Assembly (NCBI GenBank): GCA_002633185.1
Contig: NWBM01000002.1
Coordinates: 626,832-690,831 of the forward strand
Reading direction: 5' to 3'
DNA length: 64,000 nucleotides
From: Lachnospiraceae bacterium Phil5
GTDB taxonomy: Bacteria > Bacillota > Clostridia > TANB77 > CAG-508
Part shown: positions 3,237-46,573 of the stretch, piece after piece
Layout: every line of letters begins with the position of its first letter
Position numbering within the stretch: position 1 is the first letter of the stretch
Translations under genes and position numbers: made by a program
The notes under the pieces: model-generated
What the model was told of the DNA's origin: nothing
Seen by the model: only the letters and a program-made list of their open reading frames with translations
Databases searched by the model: none

Positions 3237-3278
3237 AATTTTTTTATCTCCTTTTCGTCTTGTCTGTGTCCTGTCTGT

Positions 3279-3323
3279 GGACGGGGACAAAAGTGGACAA
3301 AATGTCCGATTTTGTCCCCGTCC
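3279..3323. repeat. G-rich inverted-repeat hairpin, family B copy 1
   Basis: GGACGGGGACAAAA ... TTTTGTCCCCGTCC, 14-nt perfect arms; inner TGGACA/TGTCC. Confidence 0.8.
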
Positions 3324-3339
3324 CCAAATAGGACATTTT

Positions 3340-9645: not shown

Positions 9646-9675
9646 GATGTTTTTTGGAGGTGTCCAAAAAAATCT
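9646..9675 (+). repeat. 30-nt element family A, copy A1
   Basis: GATGTTTTTTGGAGGTGTCCAAAAAAATCT between porC and porD. Confidence 0.85.
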
Positions 9676-12148: not shown

Positions 12149-12158
12149 ATTTTGGAAG

Positions 12159-12188
12159 AGTTTTTTGGGGACACCTCCAAAAAACATC
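12159..12188 (-). repeat. Family A element, copy A2
   Basis: AGTTTTTTGGGGACACCTCCAAAAAACATC (reverse complement of consensus), directly downstream of porB. Confidence 0.85.
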
Positions 12189-12202
12189 TAGATTAAAAAT
12201 CG

Positions 12203-12244: not shown

Positions 12245-13525
12245 TTAAGATGTTTTTTGGAGGTGTCCCAAAAAATCTTTTCCATCTACCATTCTACCTA
12301 CTAGCATACTTGATGCTGTGTTTCCAGTAACATTTAACATTGTTGCTGGTGAATCTATTATTGTTGCTATTATTGTTAATATTGGAAGTGCTGCAACTGG
12401 GTAGCCTAGCATTGTTATAATCATCATTTCTGAAATTGTTCCTCCGCCTATTGGCACTGCACTTACTAATAATGTTGCAAGTAATCCTACTATTATAATC
12501 TGTGCAATTCCTGATGGGCTTGCAATATTTGTTCCGAATAAACATACTAAAAACATTATTTTAAATACTGTTCCTATTATTGAACCATCTTTATGGAAGC
12601 TTGTTCCTAGTGGGATAACTGTTTCCGCTATATCATCACTTACTCCCATTTTTCTACTTGCTTCTGTATTTCCTGGAATACATGCTGCTGATGAACATGT
12701 TGCAATTGATGTTACTGTTGGATCTATTATATTTCTCCAAAATACTTTTATACCTTTTTTTCCTCCTGCAATAAATGCATATAGTGTATATATAACTATA
12801 TAAAATGCGACTGCAACGGCTAAATAAATTACAAAAGTTTTTACATATCCTATTGCTATGCTCTCTCCAAAAGTTCCCACTAATACTGCAAAATAGCATC
12901 CAAGTCCTATTGGTGCATAATATGTTATTAATTGAAGTACTTTCATTACTACTTCATTTGCTGAAATTAACACTCTTTCAAATGGCTTAGCAGACTCCCC
13001 TGCCATACGCATTGCAATTCCAAACAGAATTGAGAAAATCATTACTGCTAATAAATTTTGTCTTGAAAATAATCCTGAAAAATCTGTAACAGTTATTGCC
13101 TCAACTGTTCTATCTAAAATAGTTTTCTCTTCTTCAGAACTTTTTTCAGATTCTTCTTCACTGCTTTCTTCAGCAAAACTAGACTTTATTGCCTCTGTAT
13201 CTTTTGGTTCAACTAATTTTATAAAATATGTACTTGCTATTCCCACTAAAACTGCAATAATTGATGTTATTATTATTACAAAAATTGTTGATCCCATAAT
13301 TTTACCTAATCTTTTAGGTGATTTCATTTTTGAAATTGATGTTGAAATTGTTAAAAATACTAGTGGTATTATAATTACAAACATTAAATTGATAAATATA
13401 TCTCCTAATGGTTTTACTACTTTTGTTTGCTCCTTATAAATTAATCCAAAAATTGCTCCTATAATTATAGATGCCAATAGTATTATAGTTTGTCTATAAT
13501 TCTTCCAAAAAATCTTCATACACAA
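12245..13525 (-). CDS. Dicarboxylate/amino acid:cation symporter (DAACS family)
   Basis: Multi-TM; 'FINLMFVIIIPLVFLTISTSI', 'ATCSSAACIPGNTEASRKMGV...PLGTSFHKDGS', 'GGGTISEMMI'. C-terminal codons are repeat-derived. Confidence 0.88.
   Translation of the reverse strand: MCMKIFWKNYRQTIILLASIIIGAIFGLIYKEQTKVVKPLGDIFINLMFVIIIPLVFLTISTSISKMKSPKRLGKIMGSTIFVIIITSIIAVLVGIASTYFIKLVEPKDTEAIKSSFAEESSEEESEKSSEEEKTILDRTVEAITVTDFSGLFSRQNLLAVMIFSILFGIAMRMAGESAKPFERVLISANEVVMKVLQLITYYAPIGLGCYFAVLVGTFGESIAIGYVKTFVIYLAVAVAFYIVIYTLYAFIAGGKKGIKVFWRNIIDPTVTSIATCSSAACIPGNTEASRKMGVSDDIAETVIPLGTSFHKDGSIIGTVFKIMFLVCLFGTNIASPSGIAQIIIVGLLATLLVSAVPIGGGTISEMMIITMLGYPVAALPILTIIATIIDSPATMLNVTGNTASSMLVGRMVDGKDFLGHLQKTS
12249..12278 (+). 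repeat. Family A element, copy A3 (overlaps symporter 3' end)
   Basis: GATGTTTTTTGGAGGTGTCCCAAAAAATCT exact consensus. Confidence 0.9.
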
Positions 13526-18797: not shown

Positions 18798-18852
18798 TTG
18801 GGGGACTGGGTAGATTTGTGTAAAAATGAAACATTTTAACCCTGTCCCCCAA
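18798..18852. repeat. G-rich inverted-repeat hairpin, family B copy 3
   Basis: TTGGGGGACTGGGT ... ACCCTGTCCCCCAA just 3' of the glucan synthase stop. Confidence 0.7.
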
Positions 18853-18861
18853 CGTAGCAAA

Positions 18862-21800
18862 CTACAAGAAAACCTCTACCTCGTTTACATTTCCGTCGTC
18901 AATAAGCTTTATTTTACATGCCTCAATAACACTTCCATTTATTACAACCTTTTGCACTCCATTATTTTTCCCATATAAATTGTAAACCTTAATATTGTAT
19001 ATGCTTTCTCCTATTTTGTATTTTATACTGTATTCTTTCCAATTACTTGCTATTGCTGGATTAAAAGTCATATATCCGTTTTCTATATTTATTCCCAAAA
19101 TATATTTTATTCCTGCTATATACATCCAGCTGCTTGAACCGGTGTACCATGTCCAGCCTCCACGGCCGGATAGGTTGTCTTTTCCGTACACGTCTGCAGG
19201 GATAACATATGGCTCTACTTTGTATTTCATTACTTCTTCTTTTGTCCTTGTGTGTTCTATTGGATTTATCATTCTAAAGTATTCTACTGCTTTGTTTCCA
19301 AATCCTAGAATTGCTTCTGCTATAATTACCCAGACCGCTGCGTGGGTATATTGTCCACCGTTTTCTCGTGTTCCTGGGAGATAAGCTTTTATATAGCCAG
19401 GTTCTAGTGTTCCGTTTTCAAATGGAGGATCTAATAATTTTATTATTCCGTTTTCTGAATCAACTAGATGATTTTCTAAGCTTTCCATTGAAATGTATTT
19501 TTTGTCATTGTCCCCCATATTTGAAATTACAGACCAGCTTTGTGCTATGCTGTCTATTTTGCATTCATCATTTTGTAAACTTCCTAGTTCGTCTCCATTG
19601 TCCATAAATGCCCTTTTGAACCATCTTCCGTCCCATGCATTTTGATTTATTGATTTTTTTATTTGTTCAACTATTTGCTTGTATTTTTCAGATTTGCTAT
19701 CCCCAACATATTCACAAATTTGGATGAATTTATTTAACACTGCACATAAGAAAAATGCAAGCCATACACTTTCTCCCTTTCCTTTATTTCCTACTGTACT
19801 GAAGCCATCATTCCAGTCCCCCGAGCCTATTTTAGGTAATCCATGTTCTCCTATATTAATTGATTTTTCTATAGCTTTTATACAGTGCTCATAGATTGTT
19901 CCCTTTTTATCTGATTGAATATATAAATCATATTTTTCATCTATTCCATCTTCTAATACATTTCCATCTAAATAATTGGTCTCTATATTTAAAATACTAT
20001 AATCTCCTGTAAATTCTATATAATCGGCTACTGTGTATGGAAGCCATAATAGGTCATCTGAAAATTTAGTTCTTATTCCTCTTTTTGTTTCTTCATGCCA
20101 CCAGTGTTCAACATCTCCTTCTATAAACTGATGCTCGCTGTGTTTTATTATTTGATCTTTTGTTATTTCAGGATTTAGATATTTTGCACTTAAGCTATCT
20201 TGAAGCTGGTCTCTAAATCCATAGGCTCCCCCAGACTGATAAAATCCAGTTCTTCCAATTAATCTGCTTACTATAGTTTGATACATTAGCCATCCGTTTA
20301 ATAAAATATTCATTGATTCCATTGGGGTATTTACTTGAATTTTATTTAATAAATTATTCCAATATTTTTTTACTAATTCATTTTCTTGATTGCAATTATT
20401 TAAATTGCTGTATTTATATGCTAAATCTTGACATTCAATTACACTATCTGAAGCGCCTAAAACAATTGATAATTCCTTGTTTTCAAGTGATTCAAGTTCT
20501 ATTTCAAGTTCCACTGCAATAATTTCACTAATTTTATCATTCAATTTATTACTAAAATTATATAATTTTAATCCATCTGGATTTGACATTCCTCCGTTTC
20601 CTAAGAATTCTTTTTTTAGTCCGGTATATGATTTTATTTTTTCACTACTTGAAATAAAAATATTATTTTTATAATCAGTATTTTTTAAATTTTTTGCTAT
20701 TATTGTGTTGCTATTTTTATCAAATTTTATATTGAAAAATTGACTTGTTTGTGTTTCATCTTCTCCTATTACTGGTTTAATATAATAAATTAATTTTATT
20801 TTTCTTTTTCTTGGAGTTTCATTTTTTAATTTAATTATTTGTATTTTTGCACTATCTTCTTGTGGAACAAAAATTTCTAATTCTTGCTTTATTCCGCAAC
20901 TTGTGTGAATATATTTTGCGTAACCGAATCCATATATTGCATAATATTCGTTATCATCTGGCATTGGGTTTAGACCAAGTGACCAGGCTTTTTTAGTATC
21001 ATCATCTTTAATATAAATTACTTCTGAAGGGATGTCTAAAATTGGGTTATTTGACCATGCAGTTATTCTATTTAATCTACTATTTTTAGACCACGAATAA
21101 CCTCCCATTGAGTCTGTAATTAATGTTCCGAAATTTTTATTTGCTAAAATATGACTCCATGGCATTGGAACATTTTCATGTTTGTTTAATTTTATAAAAT
21201 ATTCTTTTCCATCTTCTGAAAATCCGCCATACCCATTAAAATATTTAAAATTATCAAATGAAATATTATTATCTTGTTCATCTTGAAATAATTCTATTGT
21301 TTCATTAATATCATTTTTATTTATTTGTGGAGTTTCCTCCTCTATTTCTTTTAATTGCATATTTAAGTTTCCATTTTGCGCATCTAATATTAATTTTGAA
21401 TATTTTTCAATTAAATTTTTATCCTGTTTTTTTATATTATTTAAAATAAATATTCCACCTTTTATATTCAACATATATGAAATATTTCTGTTTAAAATAA
21501 CATTGTGAATTGCTTCTTTTACATAGCTGTCGTAATTTTCTTTTTCTTCATTTAATATAACTAAATCAATTTCTAAATTTTTTGTTTTAAAATATTCGAA
21601 TGCTTTTACTAATTCTTCAATTACATCTATGTCATTAATATTTTTTATTTTAATAAAAATAATTGGTACATCGCCTGAAATTCCGAACTTCCATAATTCT
21701 GTTATTGGATATAATTCGCTATTTTCCGAATTATTTTTTTCTGCTGAAATATTAGAAATATTTGAATTATTTCCTATAATATAGGTTAATATTTTTTGAT

Positions 21801-24800
21801 AATTATCTATATCTTTCCCACTTAATCCTAAATATCTATTTTCTGCTTCTATTCTTGCTTTTGATAATTCAAAAATTCTTTTGTTACTTTCACTATTTAA
21901 ATATTTTTTTATATTTTCTAATACCTCTTTCCTATTTTCTGAAACACAAATAATTAAATCTAAATTAATATTTTCTTTTGCTTTAATATTAATTGTTTTT
22001 TTCATTGCAATAATTGGATCTGTTGTTAATTCTATTTTTTTACTAAATGGCTTAGAGTTTTCAATTAATTTAGGAATTCCAAAATTATTTCTCCCAATGA
22101 ATTTTTCTTTATTTATTTCATATTCAATTTCGCCTAAACCTTTGTCTTCAGAGTAAAAATTAACAGCCATATATATTGCTTGTTTTGAGTTTGAACGATT
22201 TTTTCTTTTTACTAAAATTGTATTTGTTTCAGGAATAAATTCATAATTTAAAAATAAATTATTAAATGCTGTATGTGCGTAATCCTGCTCTTTTGTTGAT
22301 AATACTGGTTCTAAATATGAACTAATTTCTAATGTTTCATCTGTGTTTCCTAAATTTTCTATTTCTAATCTTCTAATTTCTACAGAGTCATTTGGACTTA
22401 CAGTAATTTTTGTTTTGGTTTCTATATTTCCATCAATTCTATCAATTTTTGTTTTATCAGGTGCAAATGTAACTGTGTATTTATCAGGTTTATCAGCCAC
22501 TTGATTATAACCATTTGTCCATATTTTTTTATTTTTTATATTTTTTATATAAAAATAAATTCCCTCATTTACATCAGATGTTTGCTTGTATCTATTTATT
22601 AAAATATTTTTATATTTGCTATATCCATTACCTTTTTCATCTGTAATTATTGAATAATTTTTATTAGAAATTAAATTGTATTTTTCTAAATTTTCGCTAA
22701 TTTTATTTAACGTTTTTTCTGAATAAAAATCATAATTACTATATTTTATTTTTTCAACTTTTTCCTTTTTCTCTTTTGCAATAATTACATTTTCTGGCAT
22801 TCTTTCTTCTAACAAAATATTTATAGCTTGCATTTCCGGATTTTTCATAAATCTTTTTTGAAAAATATTATTATTAAATAAATTATTTATACTAAGCAAA
22901 ATTAGTGCTTGATGGTGTGCCATATATGTTTTTACATTTTCATATTTTTTATTTTTATTTAATCTACTTGGAGTGAAATCTATAGATTCATAAAATCCAT
23001 ATTTATTTAACATTCCTTGATTCTCTAGTATTTTTAAATTTTGAATTACTCCTTTTGGATCTTCTGTTATAGCAAGTATTGATCCATAAGAAGAAACCAC
23101 CATTTCATCTGCTAGTCCTCTTTTTAATCCAAGCCATGGTATTCCAAATGCCTTATATTGATAATTATTGTTTAAGTCTTTTAAATTAAATGCAGATTCA
23201 GAAATTCCCCATGGAATACCTAATTTTTTAGCATATTCTTTTTGACTCATAATCATAAATTTGCAAGATTCATCTAATAAACTTCCTGGATATTTAGGAA
23301 TATTTATATTTGGCATTAAATATTCAAACGCTGTTCCAGACCACGAAATTAACCCTTTATATTTATTTAAAACTGTTAAAGTTCTACTTAAATTGTACCA
23401 ATTTTTTACATCAATGTCTTTTTTAGCAATTGCAATTAAACTTGCTTGTCTTGCTTCAGAAGCTAATAAATCATAATATGAATCTACTAATTTATTTGCC
23501 TCAACATCAAAACCAATTGAAAATAAATTATTTTTATAATCAAATAATTTTGAAAAATCTGTGTTTTTAATTAAATCTGAAATTTGTATTTTCATTAATT
23601 TTATTTTTTCTATAAAAAAAGACTTCTCTTCTTCTGCAATTTTTTCTGAATTTTCTACTTCATTTAAAAATTGCAAAACAACATAAAAATATCCAACCAA
23701 ATTTCCACTATCAACTGATGAAATAAATCTTGGTGTTAGCGGTTCTAAATTCTCTAAATTATACCAGTTATATAAATGCCCATTCCATTTTTGAAGGCTT
23801 GCTACCGTGTTTATCATTTTTTCTAATAAATTAATTGTGTCTTCTAAATTTTCAAATTTTAAATCATAACTTGCAATCACTGAAAGCATTGCAAGTCCTA
23901 TATTGGTAGATGAAGTTCGCAACATTACTTTTGGTTTTCTATCTTCCTGATAATTATCTGGTGGTAAATAATTTGTGTTTTCATTTATATAATTTTTAAA
24001 ATATTGCCAAGTTTTTTCAGCAATATTTTTTACATATTCTTTTTCATTTTTATTTAATAATTCTATTTTGTTTATTTCTTTTATTGGCTTACCTATTAAA
24101 TAAATAATTGCTGGTGAAATAAGCCATATTACTGAAATTGTTGCTACAAAAATACCTTCTATTAATTCTAGATCTCCAAAAATAAATAAAATAATTCCTA
24201 AAATCCCAAATATTAAATTAGGCATCATATTTATATAATAATTTTGCAAATTATTTTTAGAATTTTTTTCTGCCTCTTCTGCTGTAACCCATTCAAGTAA
24301 ATGTTTTTTACTATAAATCATTCTATATAAACTTTTACATTCTGCGTTTAATGTCATATACGCTTTATCTGGTAATGTTGCAATAGCAAGACCAATTTTT
24401 ATAAAACTATTAATTATTGTTGTTTGCTTCTTTTCAAATGTTTTTTGTAAAGTTTCTCCATCTTTTTTAAAAATAATTTTATTTAAAATTTCTAAAATAT
24501 ATGGAATAATTAAACTAAAAATTAAAAATAAAATTATTGGAAAAATAGTTATTCCATCTACATATTTTTCAAATAATAAAATTAAAATTGATACTAAAAT
24601 ACTTGTTTCTAATTTGCTTCTAAGAATATTATCTATAATTTTATATTTTGATAAAATATTAATTTTTTTATTTTTAATCCATTTTAAAATTTGATAATCT
24701 CCCCTAATCCATCTGTGGAGCCTTTTCTTAAATGCTAAATAATTAGTTGGAAATCCATCCATAAGCATAACATCTGAAACCATACCACATCTTAAATATG

Positions 24801-27039
24801 AGCCTTCTAGCAAATCATGGCTAAGAACTGTATTTTCTGGAATTTCATTTTTTAATACTTGAGAAAAAACATTTAAATCATAAATTCCTTTCCCTGTAAA
24901 AATTCCCTCGTCAAAATTATCTTGGTAAACATCAAAAATAGCATTAACATACGAATCTGTTCCACCTAGTCCAGAATAAATTTTAGTAAATTGACTACGT
25001 CTAACTTCTAATAAACCAACACCTACTCTAGGCTGTAACAAAGCATGACCAGCCACAACAACATTTTTATTTTTATCAATTTCAGGCTTATTCAAAATAT
25101 GAGACATTGCACCAATTAGCTCTAACCCCGAATTCAAGGTTAAATCAGTGTCACTGTCTAGGGTAATTATATATTTTATTTGTAGGATGTTTTTTGGAGG
25201 TGTCCCAGAAAAAATATTTTTTGGGACACCTCCAAAAAACATCTCTTCATTTTCAAAGCTATTAAATAAAAATGGATTTTTTATATTTCCTAATAAATAT
25301 TCATTAAATTGATTTATTGCTCCCCTTTTTCTTTCCCAGCCTAAATAGCAGTTTTCTCCACTGTTCCATGTTCTTTTTCTGTATATAAAATTAAATTTAT
25401 TGTATTTTTCATCTGGATATTTTTCATTTAATTTTTTTATTTCTTCAATACCTGCTTTAATTATTTCATCATCAAAATTTTCTTTTTCATTTTTTCCGCT
25501 TGAACAATCTCCTAATAAAGTGAAATATAAATTATCACTTTTATTTGCAATATAATACACTTCTAATTTAGAAAATAATTCATGTACTTTTTCTGCATTT
25601 TTCACAATTGTTGGTATTATTACCATTGTTGCATATTCAGCTGGCACTCCATATTTAAAATCTAATTTAGGTAATATTTTAGGCTTTATTAATTTGCTTA
25701 AAAAATACTGAATTATTTGCACTATAATTGTCTGACTTGGAACTAATGTAGCAATAAAAATAATTACAGAAATTATTAAATTTTGAGACTCTCTATACAC
25801 ATATATTCCACTTAACAAGCTTGTCAAAATTGATAATACTACAATTCCTAAAATATATAATTTCATTTTTGTTTTATTTGATGAAAACTTTATTTTTTTA
25901 TTTAATAATTCTGATAATAAAATACTCTTCCCACTTGAAATTAAATAATAACCAATATGTGTTTCTTTCTCATTTTTCAAATCATTTCTTTGCGCTAATT
26001 CCAAGCATTTTTTTGCAATATACATTTCAGAAATTTTGGTTTTCTTTGCAATTTTTTCAATTTCCTGTCTATAATATGCTCTTGTTTTATAATCCATTTT
26101 GCTATAAACATCTGCAGGATCTTTTTTTAATATTTCCTCTACCCCATTTATTTGTTCAAAAATCTCTAAAAAATTCACCCTAATTATTGTATTAATACTT
26201 GTTATTGAATTTCCCATTGAAACTTTTTTTAAAGCAATATCAAAATGCTCTTTTTGAATAACCTCTGAAATTGTTAATCCCATTTTATCAACTTGCTCTT
26301 CTAAAATTTTTAAAAAAGCATATGCTTGCTTACCATACTGCTTCAGTCTGTATGACATATACTCAATAAAAGGATATTTCATTTCACCATATCCATACGT
26401 TCTATTTGATGAAATACTTTTAAATTTTAAATTATTTTTATTTTCTATTAATCTTTCAATAATATTTTCAACTTTATATTTTTGCATTTGAGATGAATAT
26501 ATTTTTTCACAAATTCCTCGAATATTTTCAATTAACGCAATTTGCAAAAAAATTCCGATATTCCAAATTTCATCCATGCTCAAGCTTTTCTTAGACTGAT
26601 ATGCTTGAAGTAAATTACTTAAATTATTTCTATCTATTACTCCATCTGTATAAGCTACAATTTCACTTGCTAAAACATAAACACGAGCAAAACCTTTATA
26701 ATTTCCATTATCTATACCAATAAAATTTTTATATTTTTTTAGTGGCATATCTTTTATAATTGTTTTAACCGTTTTTTCAATTATATAATAATTATCTAAA
26801 AGCCACTCCCCTGCTGGATGAATTGGTATTCCCAATTTTAAATGTTCTGTTAAAACATTATAAACATTTGTTATATATTCAAAATTTTCTTTTACTCTTG
26901 GTATTGGAAAAGTATTTTTTTCTGATTTATTTTTTAAAATATTATCTGATGCAAGTTTTGCTAAATAATTCTCTAATTGATTTTTATCTAATAGCACACC
27001 TTTTATATTCAAAACTCTGTAATCTTCCAAATTTGACAC
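18862..27039 (-). CDS. Cyclic beta-1,2-glucan synthase-like protein (NdvB/ChvB type: GT84 plus GH94-like domains), 2725 aa
   Basis: 'WERKRGAINQFNEYL', 'IKYIITLDSDTDL', 'LSHDLLEGSYLRCGMVSDVMLMDGFPTNYLAFKKRLHRWIRGDYQ'; C-terminal 'GSGDWNDGFSTVGNKGKGESVWLAFFL' and 'SGRGGWTWYTGSSSWMY'. Confidence 0.88.
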   Translation of the reverse strand: MSNLEDYRVLNIKGVLLDKNQLENYLAKLASDNILKNKSEKNTFPIPRVKENFEYITNVYNVLTEHLKLGIPIHPAGEWLLDNYYIIEKTVKTIIKDMPLKKYKNFIGIDNGNYKGFARVYVLASEIVAYTDGVIDRNNLSNLLQAYQSKKSLSMDEIWNIGIFLQIALIENIRGICEKIYSSQMQKYKVENIIERLIENKNNLKFKSISSNRTYGYGEMKYPFIEYMSYRLKQYGKQAYAFLKILEEQVDKMGLTISEVIQKEHFDIALKKVSMGNSITSINTIIRVNFLEIFEQINGVEEILKKDPADVYSKMDYKTRAYYRQEIEKIAKKTKISEMYIAKKCLELAQRNDLKNEKETHIGYYLISSGKSILLSELLNKKIKFSSNKTKMKLYILGIVVLSILTSLLSGIYVYRESQNLIISVIIFIATLVPSQTIIVQIIQYFLSKLIKPKILPKLDFKYGVPAEYATMVIIPTIVKNAEKVHELFSKLEVYYIANKSDNLYFTLLGDCSSGKNEKENFDDEIIKAGIEEIKKLNEKYPDEKYNKFNFIYRKRTWNSGENCYLGWERKRGAINQFNEYLLGNIKNPFLFNSFENEEMFFGGVPKNIFSGTPPKNILQIKYIITLDSDTDLTLNSGLELIGAMSHILNKPEIDKNKNVVVAGHALLQPRVGVGLLEVRRSQFTKIYSGLGGTDSYVNAIFDVYQDNFDEGIFTGKGIYDLNVFSQVLKNEIPENTVLSHDLLEGSYLRCGMVSDVMLMDGFPTNYLAFKKRLHRWIRGDYQILKWIKNKKINILSKYKIIDNILRSKLETSILVSILILLFEKYVDGITIFPIILFLIFSLIIPYILEILNKIIFKKDGETLQKTFEKKQTTIINSFIKIGLAIATLPDKAYMTLNAECKSLYRMIYSKKHLLEWVTAEEAEKNSKNNLQNYYINMMPNLIFGILGIILFIFGDLELIEGIFVATISVIWLISPAIIYLIGKPIKEINKIELLNKNEKEYVKNIAEKTWQYFKNYINENTNYLPPDNYQEDRKPKVMLRTSSTNIGLAMLSVIASYDLKFENLEDTINLLEKMINTVASLQKWNGHLYNWYNLENLEPLTPRFISSVDSGNLVGYFYVVLQFLNEVENSEKIAEEEKSFFIEKIKLMKIQISDLIKNTDFSKLFDYKNNLFSIGFDVEANKLVDSYYDLLASEARQASLIAIAKKDIDVKNWYNLSRTLTVLNKYKGLISWSGTAFEYLMPNINIPKYPGSLLDESCKFMIMSQKEYAKKLGIPWGISESAFNLKDLNNNYQYKAFGIPWLGLKRGLADEMVVSSYGSILAITEDPKGVIQNLKILENQGMLNKYGFYESIDFTPSRLNKNKKYENVKTYMAHHQALILLSINNLFNNNIFQKRFMKNPEMQAINILLEERMPENVIIAKEKKEKVEKIKYSNYDFYSEKTLNKISENLEKYNLISNKNYSIITDEKGNGYSKYKNILINRYKQTSDVNEGIYFYIKNIKNKKIWTNGYNQVADKPDKYTVTFAPDKTKIDRIDGNIETKTKITVSPNDSVEIRRLEIENLGNTDETLEISSYLEPVLSTKEQDYAHTAFNNLFLNYEFIPETNTILVKRKNRSNSKQAIYMAVNFYSEDKGLGEIEYEINKEKFIGRNNFGIPKLIENSKPFSKKIELTTDPIIAMKKTINIKAKENINLDLIICVSENRKEVLENIKKYLNSESNKRIFELSKARIEAENRYLGLSGKDIDNYQKILTYIIGNNSNISNISAEKNNSENSELYPITELWKFGISGDVPIIFIKIKNINDIDVIEELVKAFEYFKTKNLEIDLVILNEEKENYDSYVKEAIHNVILNRNISYMLNIKGGIFILNNIKKQDKNLIEKYSKLILDAQNGNLNMQLKEIEEETPQINKNDINETIELFQDEQDNNISFDNFKYFNGYGGFSEDGKEYFIKLNKHENVPMPWSHILANKNFGTLITDSMGGYSWSKNSRLNRITAWSNNPILDIPSEVIYIKDDDTKKAWSLGLNPMPDDNEYYAIYGFGYAKYIHTSCGIKQELEIFVPQEDSAKIQIIKLKNETPRKRKIKLIYYIKPVIGEDETQTSQFFNIKFDKNSNTIIAKNLKNTDYKNNIFISSSEKIKSYTGLKKEFLGNGGMSNPDGLKLYNFSNKLNDKISEIIAVELEIELESLENKELSIVLGASDSVIECQDLAYKYSNLNNCNQENELVKKYWNNLLNKIQVNTPMESMNILLNGWLMYQTIVSRLIGRTGFYQSGGAYGFRDQLQDSLSAKYLNPEITKDQIIKHSEHQFIEGDVEHWWHEETKRGIRTKFSDDLLWLPYTVADYIEFTGDYSILNIETNYLDGNVLEDGIDEKYDLYIQSDKKGTIYEHCIKAIEKSINIGEHGLPKIGSGDWNDGFSTVGNKGKGESVWLAFFLCAVLNKFIQICEYVGDSKSEKYKQIVEQIKKSINQNAWDGRWFKRAFMDNGDELGSLQNDECKIDSIAQSWSVISNMGDNDKKYISMESLENHLVDSENGIIKLLDPPFENGTLEPGYIKAYLPGTRENGGQYTHAAVWVIIAEAILGFGNKAVEYFRMINPIEHTRTKEEVMKYKVEPYVIPADVYGKDNLSGRGGWTWYTGSSSWMYIAGIKYILGINIENGYMTFNPAIASNWKEYSIKYKIGESIYNIKVYNLYGKNNGVQKVVINGSVIEACKIKLIDDGNVNEVEVFL
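25186..25243. repeat. Inverted pair of family A elements (A4/A5) inside the glucan synthase ORF
   Basis: GATGTTTTTTGGAGGTGTCCC-AGAAAAAATATTTTTT-GGGACACCTCCAAAAAACATC; 21-nt perfect arms; read in frame as MFFGGVPKNIFSGTPPKN. Confidence 0.95.
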
Positions 27040-29465: not shown

Positions 29466-29508
29466 GACGGGGATAAAATGTTTCATTTTGTAACATTTTA
29501 TCCCCGTC
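29466..29508. repeat. G-rich inverted-repeat hairpin, family B copy 5
   Basis: GACGGGGATAAAATGTT-TCATTTTGT-AACATTTTATCCCCGTC, 17-nt perfect arms; a further degenerate unit runs to about 29561 over the ATPase C-terminus. Confidence 0.85.
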
Positions 29509-29534
29509 CCCAAGCATGTTAAAATGACACTTTT

Positions 29535-32313: not shown

Positions 32314-32343
32314 AGATTTTTGGGGACACCTCCAAAAAACATC
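32314..32343 (-). repeat. Family A element, copy A6
   Basis: AGATTTTTGGGGACACCTCCAAAAAACATC, abutting the stop codon of mntP. Confidence 0.85.
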
Positions 32344-37465: not shown

Positions 37466-37503
37466 TTTTTTTGGAGGTGTCCCAAAAAACACCTCCAAAA
37501 AAT
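37466..37503. repeat. Family A hairpin variant, copy A7
   Basis: TTTTTTGGAGGTGT-CCCAAAAA-ACACCTCCAAAAAA directly 3' of the flavodoxin stop codon. Confidence 0.85.
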
Positions 37504-43327: not shown

Positions 43328-44401
43328 ATGAAAAAAATATTTTTAATGGCATATGTACGAAAAAATTTAGGAGACGATTTATTCATAAAAATGCTAACTC
43401 ATAAATATCCAGACTGCACATTTTTTATGAATGTCGACACCGACACATATATTGATTATTTGCAAGCAATTCCAAATTTAAAAATTTCTGTAGTAAATAA
43501 TCTTAAAGAAGAACTCTATAACTCAGATGTATCAGCCTATGACGCTTATATTTATATTGGTGGTTCAATTTTTATAGAGCCTAAAAATAAAACTTTATAT
43601 TATAATAATTTCAATGATTTTATAGATAAATGCAAAGCACATGGCAAGCCTTTTTACTATATAAGCTGCAACTTTGGGCCATATAGCACTCAAAACTATT
43701 TTGATTATTCAAGAAAAATATTCGAAAGTTGCACAGATATTTGTTTTAGAGATAAATATTCATATAATCTTTTCAAAAGTATTAGCACAGTGCGCTATGC
43801 ACCTGATTTTATATTTAACTATAAAAAGCCACATGACAAAATTATTAGCAATAGCGTTGGAATTTCTGTAATAGATTTATCAATTAGACAAAATTTAAAT
43901 ATTTCAACTGAAGATTATTTAGATTTTTTAACTACTAATATATCAAATTATTTAAAAGAAAATAAGCAAGTTTATTTATTTTCATTTTGCAAATATGAAG
44001 GTGATGAAACCACAATTAATTCACTTATTGAGAGATTCCCAAATGAAAAAAATATTCACGCTATAAAATATAATGGAAATTTAGATTCATTTTTAGATTT
44101 ATACAGTCAAATGGAATATGCAATTTGCACTAGATTTCATTCATTTGTATTGTCTAGCTTATTTAGAAATAAGGTTTATGTGTTATCATATAGTTCTAAA
44201 ATTGATAACGTGCTTGATGATTTAAATTTAGATTTGCCTTCTGTTCATTTAAGTAGTATTAATAAAAATTTGGAGTTGAATCTTGATAATTTTAAGGCAG
44301 CTAATAGTGAAAATCTTAATAATGCAATAGAATTAGCACAGGAACAATTGGATGGGGTTAATAGATTTTTTGGGACACCTCCAAAAAACATCTTGGATTG
44401 A
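43328..44401 (+). CDS. Polysaccharide pyruvyl transferase family protein
   Basis: 'GDDLFIKMLTHKYPDCTFFMNVD', 'YIYIGGSIFIE', 'YAICTRFHSFVLSSLFRNKVYVLSYSSK'. C-terminus FFGTPPKNILD is repeat-derived. Confidence 0.82.
   Translation: MKKIFLMAYVRKNLGDDLFIKMLTHKYPDCTFFMNVDTDTYIDYLQAIPNLKISVVNNLKEELYNSDVSAYDAYIYIGGSIFIEPKNKTLYYNNFNDFIDKCKAHGKPFYYISCNFGPYSTQNYFDYSRKIFESCTDICFRDKYSYNLFKSISTVRYAPDFIFNYKKPHDKIISNSVGISVIDLSIRQNLNISTEDYLDFLTTNISNYLKENKQVYLFSFCKYEGDETTINSLIERFPNEKNIHAIKYNGNLDSFLDLYSQMEYAICTRFHSFVLSSLFRNKVYVLSYSSKIDNVLDDLNLDLPSVHLSSINKNLELNLDNFKAANSENLNNAIELAQEQLDGVNRFFGTPPKNILD
44363..44392 (-). repeat. Family A element, copy A8 (overlaps pyruvyl transferase 3' end)
   Basis: AGATTTTTTGGGACACCTCCAAAAAACATC exact reverse-complement consensus. 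Confidence 0.9.
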
Positions 44402-44461: not shown

Positions 44462-44491
44462 GATGTTTTTTGGAGGTGTCCCAAAAAATCT
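44462..44491 (+). repeat. Family A element, copy A9
   Basis: GATGTTTTTTGGAGGTGTCCCAAAAAATCT exact consensus, 3' of the GT2 gene. Confidence 0.9.
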
Positions 44492-46543: not shown

Positions 46544-46573
46544 GATGTTTTTTGGAGGTGTCCCAAAAGCTCT
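46544..46573 (+). repeat. Family A element, copy A10 (divergent end)
   Basis: GATGTTTTTTGGAGGTGTCCCAAAAGCTCT 3' of the 46572-46997 gene. Confidence 0.8.

Follow-up and report, generated by a model that had tools for sequence, protein, structure and literature searches.

An in-frame palindrome within a cyclic beta-glucan synthase gene

The minus strand of the window, the 64,000-nucleotide stretch of DNA analysed here, which comes from an uncultured gut Clostridia bacterium, carries a gene for a 2725-aa cyclic beta-glucan synthase (CGS; NdvB/ChvB-like; 18862..27039), identified by PDB 8rf0/8rf9 and by PF17167, PF06165 and PF10091 and comprising a synthase region, Glycoamylase and GH94. Inside this ORF lies a 58-bp head-to-head dimer of a REP/TIR-like element (GATG...CATC; 25186..25243, minus strand), whose minus-strand letters from 25243 to 25186 are GATGTTTTTTGGAGGTGTCCCAAAAAATATTTTTTCTGGGACACCTCCAAAAAACATC. 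As originally predicted, the palindrome is in frame, and the minus strand reads straight through it: the translation runs ...FENEE-MFFGGVPKNIFSGTPPKNI-LQIKYIITLDSDTD..., in which MFFGGVPKNIFSGTPPKNI corresponds to the 19 element-encoded codons (25186..25242, minus strand). The 393 residues around the insert match PDB 8rf0/8rf9 (E 1e-75), with the GH94 domains downstream, and MFFGGVPKNIFSGTPPKNI falls between two motifs of the enzyme, GWERKRG, which is conserved, and ITLDSDT (DxD).

The inverted repeat had been described as 58 bp long and perfect; the length is right, but the palindrome is near-perfect, since 27 of the 29 arm positions pair between its two 29-nt halves. Folding it as single-strand DNA gives a single long hairpin, interrupted by a bulge of one base, at -27.2 kcal/mol (z = -9.9), and none of 200 shuffled sequences folded equally well. 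There is only one other copy of the dimer (G000:C3:98319-98376), which is 56/58 identical and lies in the gene of an HtrA-like protease. The unit common to both copies, GATG...CATC, measures 58 bp (3x19+1) and contributes the final base of one codon and the 19 complete codons that follow, both dimers entering at a codon third base, and all six frames are open in the dimer. Because 58 is not a multiple of three and no target-site duplication was seen by eye, we leave the insertion unit as 57 or 58 bp.

Repeats cause misjoins, and the genome is a four-contig draft (1.04 Mb, 77% complete), so we considered whether the CGS ORF is a pseudogene or has been assembled wrongly at the repeat. This is very improbable, given that the two flanks are parts of a single gene that is collinear with its homologs, that 2725 codons are open, that codon-usage scores are strongly coding on either side of the insert (204 and 773), and that independent assemblies carry other repeat families in the same loop of the enzyme (see below).

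We surveyed this loop across the family, finding a CGS match in 199 of 216 genomes and reading 117 loops, 107 of them distinct, named MAGs included. Among the distinct loops, length ranged from 37 to 71 residues (median 44), mostly with no element present. None of the examined homologs carries the residues of the insert, an absence that the original prediction had required. An exact insertion of 19-20 aa, which it had also anticipated, is not demonstrable against a conserved empty site, because the position is a hypervariable loop: in the closest homologs (77-81% identity) the loops are unrelated and differ in length, and no clean empty site close enough was found among 15 congeners and the 107 distinct loops. 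The same hypervariability makes the loop a permissive landing site. In an AlphaFold model of the 393-aa region (mean pLDDT 63, with poor quality beyond about residue 190), pLDDT drops below 50 in only one stretch between residues 5 and 190, namely residues 150-163 within the insert; we give this little weight, as a segment that has no homologs would be expected to be modelled with low confidence. One further loop (L302) contains GGTGTCCC, a possible remnant that we left out of the insertion count.

A dispersed repeat family and its accompanying transposase gene

The element belongs to a high-copy family. Its 15-mer core TTTTTGGAGGTGTCC has 124 matches at up to one mismatch in the 1.04-Mb genome, compared with 0 for the reversed control and far more than chance would give, and the 16-mer TTTTTGGAGGTGTCCC was not found in any of the 15 congeners. 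Among 113 copies surveyed in sequence context, 104 lie between genes (72 between tandem, 24 between convergent and 8 between divergent genes), in surveyed sequence that is about 85% coding; the rest comprise 8 copies within coding ORFs and 1 at an edge. The hairpins have a constant apex, GGAGGTGTCCC, set between stem arms that often vary yet still pair (GTAGAG...CTCTAC, GGATG...CATCC, GTAGAT...ATCTAC). The hairpin foot is GATG or a variant of it, rather than the GTAG tetranucleotide by which GTAG REPs are recognized. The GGGGWSAS motif appears as GGGGACAC in several copies, including those of the HtrA-like protease, an ATPase and the family of a congener, G006; the match to this motif is only approximate, because many of the genome's own copies, and those beside its own transposase gene, read TGGGACAC, one G short.

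A repeat search of the window illustrates this distribution. Most of the window copies are intergenic, as the original prediction stated for the same DNA elsewhere in the window: 9646..9675 (plus strand; an ORF start apparent over this copy is probably not real), 12158..12189 (minus), 32314..32343 (minus), 37467..37490 (plus) and 44462..44491 (plus). A further copy (46544..46573, plus) lies at a gene 3' end. That statement does not extend to the partners with which 12158..12189 and 44462..44491 form -/+ pairs, at 12248..12278 (plus) and 44363..44392 (minus) respectively, both of which occupy gene 3' ends and encode C-terminal tails. Throughout the surveyed copies, 21 close pairs are -/+, and only two are +/- (head-to-head), these being the two dimers inside proteins. 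The +/- form inside proteins may have been selected because of what it encodes, or may be a by-product resembling a junction.

Other repeats were seen alongside this family. A second family of palindromes (GACGGGGACAAAA...TTTTGTCCCCGTCCCC), which likewise has GGGGAC as its core, occurs in the window at 3267-3335, 18804-18851 and 29466-29513; a second Y1 transposase was not found in the 77%-complete genome. Nested or serial copies, and tandem CCCAAAAAATCT-like units adjoining the hairpin core, were observed at three loci (L044 1600-1760, L071 3729 and L072 1557).

We detected one Y1/HUH transposase gene in the genome, encoding a 253-aa protein that matches PF01797 above its cut-off and NCBIfam REP_Tyr_transpos with an E of 1e-18 and a score of 67, below the curated cut-off of 80. 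The protein contains NHSH and YIHQNPVKA, and the NHxH and Y(I/V)HxNPVKA region is conserved in seven homologs; a C-terminal HTH is clear only in a congener RAYT (L186; HTH_23, E 3e-5), not in the genome's own protein. Inverted copies of the element lie close to the transposase ORF on both flanks, and the same holds for RAYTs in congeners and in other genomes, which have inverted hairpins of their own on their flanks; these hairpins differ in sequence and mostly share a GGGAC/GTCCC core.

These arrangements bear on whether the element could be an orphan protein-coding palindrome of unknown spreading route, like most Rickettsia palindromic elements (RPEs), with the transposase-adjacent copies representing just two more insertions. 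With more than 100 copies in the genome any gene may have neighbours, and an assembly 77% complete could miss another mobiliser; still, the position of inverted copies close to the ORF on both of its flanks, and the recurrence of this layout with unrelated families around other RAYTs, make an orphan origin unlikely. Because the element flanks the transposase gene, we read it as a REP/TIR element of the RAYT/TIRYT class instead of an orphan repeat. Judged from sequence, the family is a RAYT/TIRYT-associated REP/TIR family: dispersed, high-copy, mostly extragenic and flanking a Y1/HUH gene. The arrangement resembles that of the TIRYT/GGGGWSAS class, and the transposase probably falls in TnpAREP subclass 2.1.

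In-frame copies in other proteins and other genomes

Internal in-frame copies are present in three unrelated proteins of this genome: as dimers in CGS and the HtrA-like protease, and as a monomer in an AAA/SbcC-like ATPase. The protease carries the same dimer with the same junction and in the same frame as CGS, just past its N-terminal membrane helix, and its anchor-to-anchor segment spans 49 residues compared with 33-34 in congeners (net +15). The ATPase monomer reads DVFGDTSKKHPQN, within a segment of 19 residues compared with 14 (net +5). The homologs examined do not have the inserted residues. As both gains fall short of the length of the element, we assume that target sequence was lost or that later indels occurred.

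These unequal gains, together with low-complexity loop expansions that congeners show with no element present, would also fit an origin without transposition, in which a repeat copy acted as donor, by recombination or gene conversion, to a disordered loop that had expanded beforehand. Such conversion would need homology around the site, and we saw none; moreover, the two proteins that carry this 58-bp unit, with one and the same junction, are unrelated and share no common flank, leaving this explanation with a slim chance, slightly below that of the orphan palindrome. The best reading is still the one originally proposed, a palindromic element that is mobile and that a protein tolerates in frame. 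It is supported by the second dimer in an unrelated protein, by the lack of these residues in the homologs examined and by the family's position around a transposase gene.

Element-encoded C-terminal tails occur in three additional proteins, a symporter, a pyruvyl transferase and a thioesterase. Two of these lie in the window: an SDF-family (dicarboxylate) symporter (12245..13525, minus strand), whose minus-strand ORF ends in ...DFLGHLQKTS-stop within the copy at 12248..12278, and a polysaccharide pyruvyl transferase-like protein (43328..44401, plus strand), whose plus-strand ORF ends in ...NRFFGTPPKNILD-stop within the copy at 44363..44392. ORFs whose N-terminus overlaps an element were dismissed as probable mis-called starts, and short ORFs over elements were excluded from the protein-insertion count.

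Different families occupy the same CGS loop in related bacteria. A separate REP family, of 79 copies, is present in the congener G006, where it flanks that genome's own RAYT and contributes three internal in-frame copies, two in a 610-aa ORF with no Pfam match and one, GGTGAGACTTTTGGGGACACTGACAAAAAGTCTCACC, in the CGS loop, where it encodes the peptide GETFGDTDKKSHP in frame. In two genomes outside the genus set (G060 and G061), a third family, with 74 and 47 copies respectively, adjoins the RAYTs and also occupies the CGS loop in frame, with the peptide TIGDVSKRY. Finding different hairpins at the same CGS spot in related bacteria suggests that proteins repeatedly acquire short peptides from such elements. 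By this comparison of genomes, the CGS loop is a permissive site that appears to have been entered independently by at least three REP families, and not the seat of a universal insertion.

Some further loci of these lineages deserve mention in their own right. Seven element copies crowd the G006 RAYT gene (G006:C5:1-4400), two of them being those inside the 610-aa ORF, and local hopping around this gene is possible. In G062 (L203 3350-3700), the CGS loop contains a stretch resembling an element, and the reading frame breaks there, as would be expected of an insertion that had escaped filtering or of a faulty assembly. Near position 3460 of L204, a diverged look-alike of the G060 element lies in the CGS loop of a genome almost devoid of that family, and is possibly a decayed old insertion.

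The monomer inserts also share a reading frame. On the sense strand, GGG-GAC is the reading of all five independent cases (the ATPase, three in G006, and one for G060/G061, taken as a single lineage), with five to six frames open in each; if open frames were equally likely, the chance of this would be about 1 in 750, a figure obtained on a small sample and with a post hoc criterion.

A model for hairpin insertion and its relation to known systems

Combining these results, we propose, with a probability of roughly 0.83, that two head-to-head hairpins of about 30 nt, of RAYT/TIRYT class, make up the 58-bp palindrome as a compact REPIN-like dimer, spread by the genome's own transposase. In this model, the HUH/Y1 transposase would recognise single-stranded hairpins and spread them as non-autonomous elements; most copies would survive between genes, and a minority would land in genes. 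In-gene copies would be kept only if they supply whole codons free of stops, enter a permissive loop or a C-terminus, and encode a tolerable peptide, and the CGS loop between GWERKRG and DxD would be such a permissive place, with at least three lineages each showing entry by a different REP family. Copy number and architecture point to mobility of the element, and the flanking arrangement to movement of these copies by the genome's own transposase. A single-strand mechanism is suggested by analogy, as cleavage and strand transfer in vitro have been demonstrated for E. coli and related TnpAREP (PMC8266576). The insert-carrying proteins are presumably made and functional, and selection presumably retains only in-frame, tolerable insertions.

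More tentatively, transposase-spread hairpins could be a recurring source of new protein segments in these gut Clostridia: cognate families might repeatedly enter the same loop, be filtered for one frame (GD-T/V-S/D-K) and then be retained, decaying as ordinary coding sequence, such that part of the loop diversity would be fossil REP. We regard this broader scenario as possible but doubtful. A mobile element can in any case underlie length variation in a conserved enzyme, which calls for caution.

The closest relatives of the family appear to be the TIRYT or 'TIRtron' elements of Di Nocera et al. 2013 (PMC3733652). These combine a Y1 transposase flanked by inverted repeats bearing GGGGWSAS (here GGGGACAC) with moderately abundant dispersed repeats, often dimers, as in the present genome. 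The copies described here differ in lying in frame inside proteins, which the sections of that paper considered here report only for GTAG and CGTC repeats. According to PMC6006769, no REP-like sequences were found beside TnpAREP subclass 2.1 genes, whereas here self-complementary families of tens to more than 100 copies accompany the transposase genes. Pseudomonas REPINs (Bertels and Rainey 2011, PMC3116915) likewise place two inverted REPs in one hairpin with a RAYT in the genome; the present elements differ in having no GTAG tag and in the orientation of their close pairs, which is -/+ between genes and +/- within them.

A likeness to Rickettsia elements had been proposed from the outset. 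It holds for the in-frame palindrome, and is refined by assignment to a RAYT/TIRYT-associated REP class, which is more than analogy. RPEs, as described in PMC10969869 and PMC3733652, are palindromic selfish DNA of about 150 bp, nearly half of it in ORFs, and CGTC REPs, the counterparts of RPE-4 and RPE-6, have no dedicated transposase. Compared by description, both groups are palindromes tolerated in frame in unrelated ORFs (here three internal and three C-terminal), but the present family is shorter than about 150 bp and flanks a transposase gene. The protein-inserted palindromes of Rickettsia have no identified mobiliser; here, the element, a probable transposase and in-protein copies co-occur, in several related genomes with different families, and this conjunction makes it possible to test directly how selfish hairpins get into proteins and reshape them.

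In-frame REPs in proteins are already documented, from RPEs and from GTAG/CGTC REPs. In PMC3733652, intragenic GTAG/CGTC REPs are single or dimeric, more than half of the inserts being dimeric or grouped and encoding 20-30 aa, and two Xanthomonas species carry different REPs at about the same recB site. The present system shares both the single or dimeric in-gene REPs and the occurrence of different REPs at about one site, and differs in its tag (neither GTAG nor CGTC), its phylum and its target proteins. Within the literature searched, what is new here is the finding of TIRYT-type protein inserts with the transposase present, in a Clostridia host, and their recurrence in one enzyme loop.
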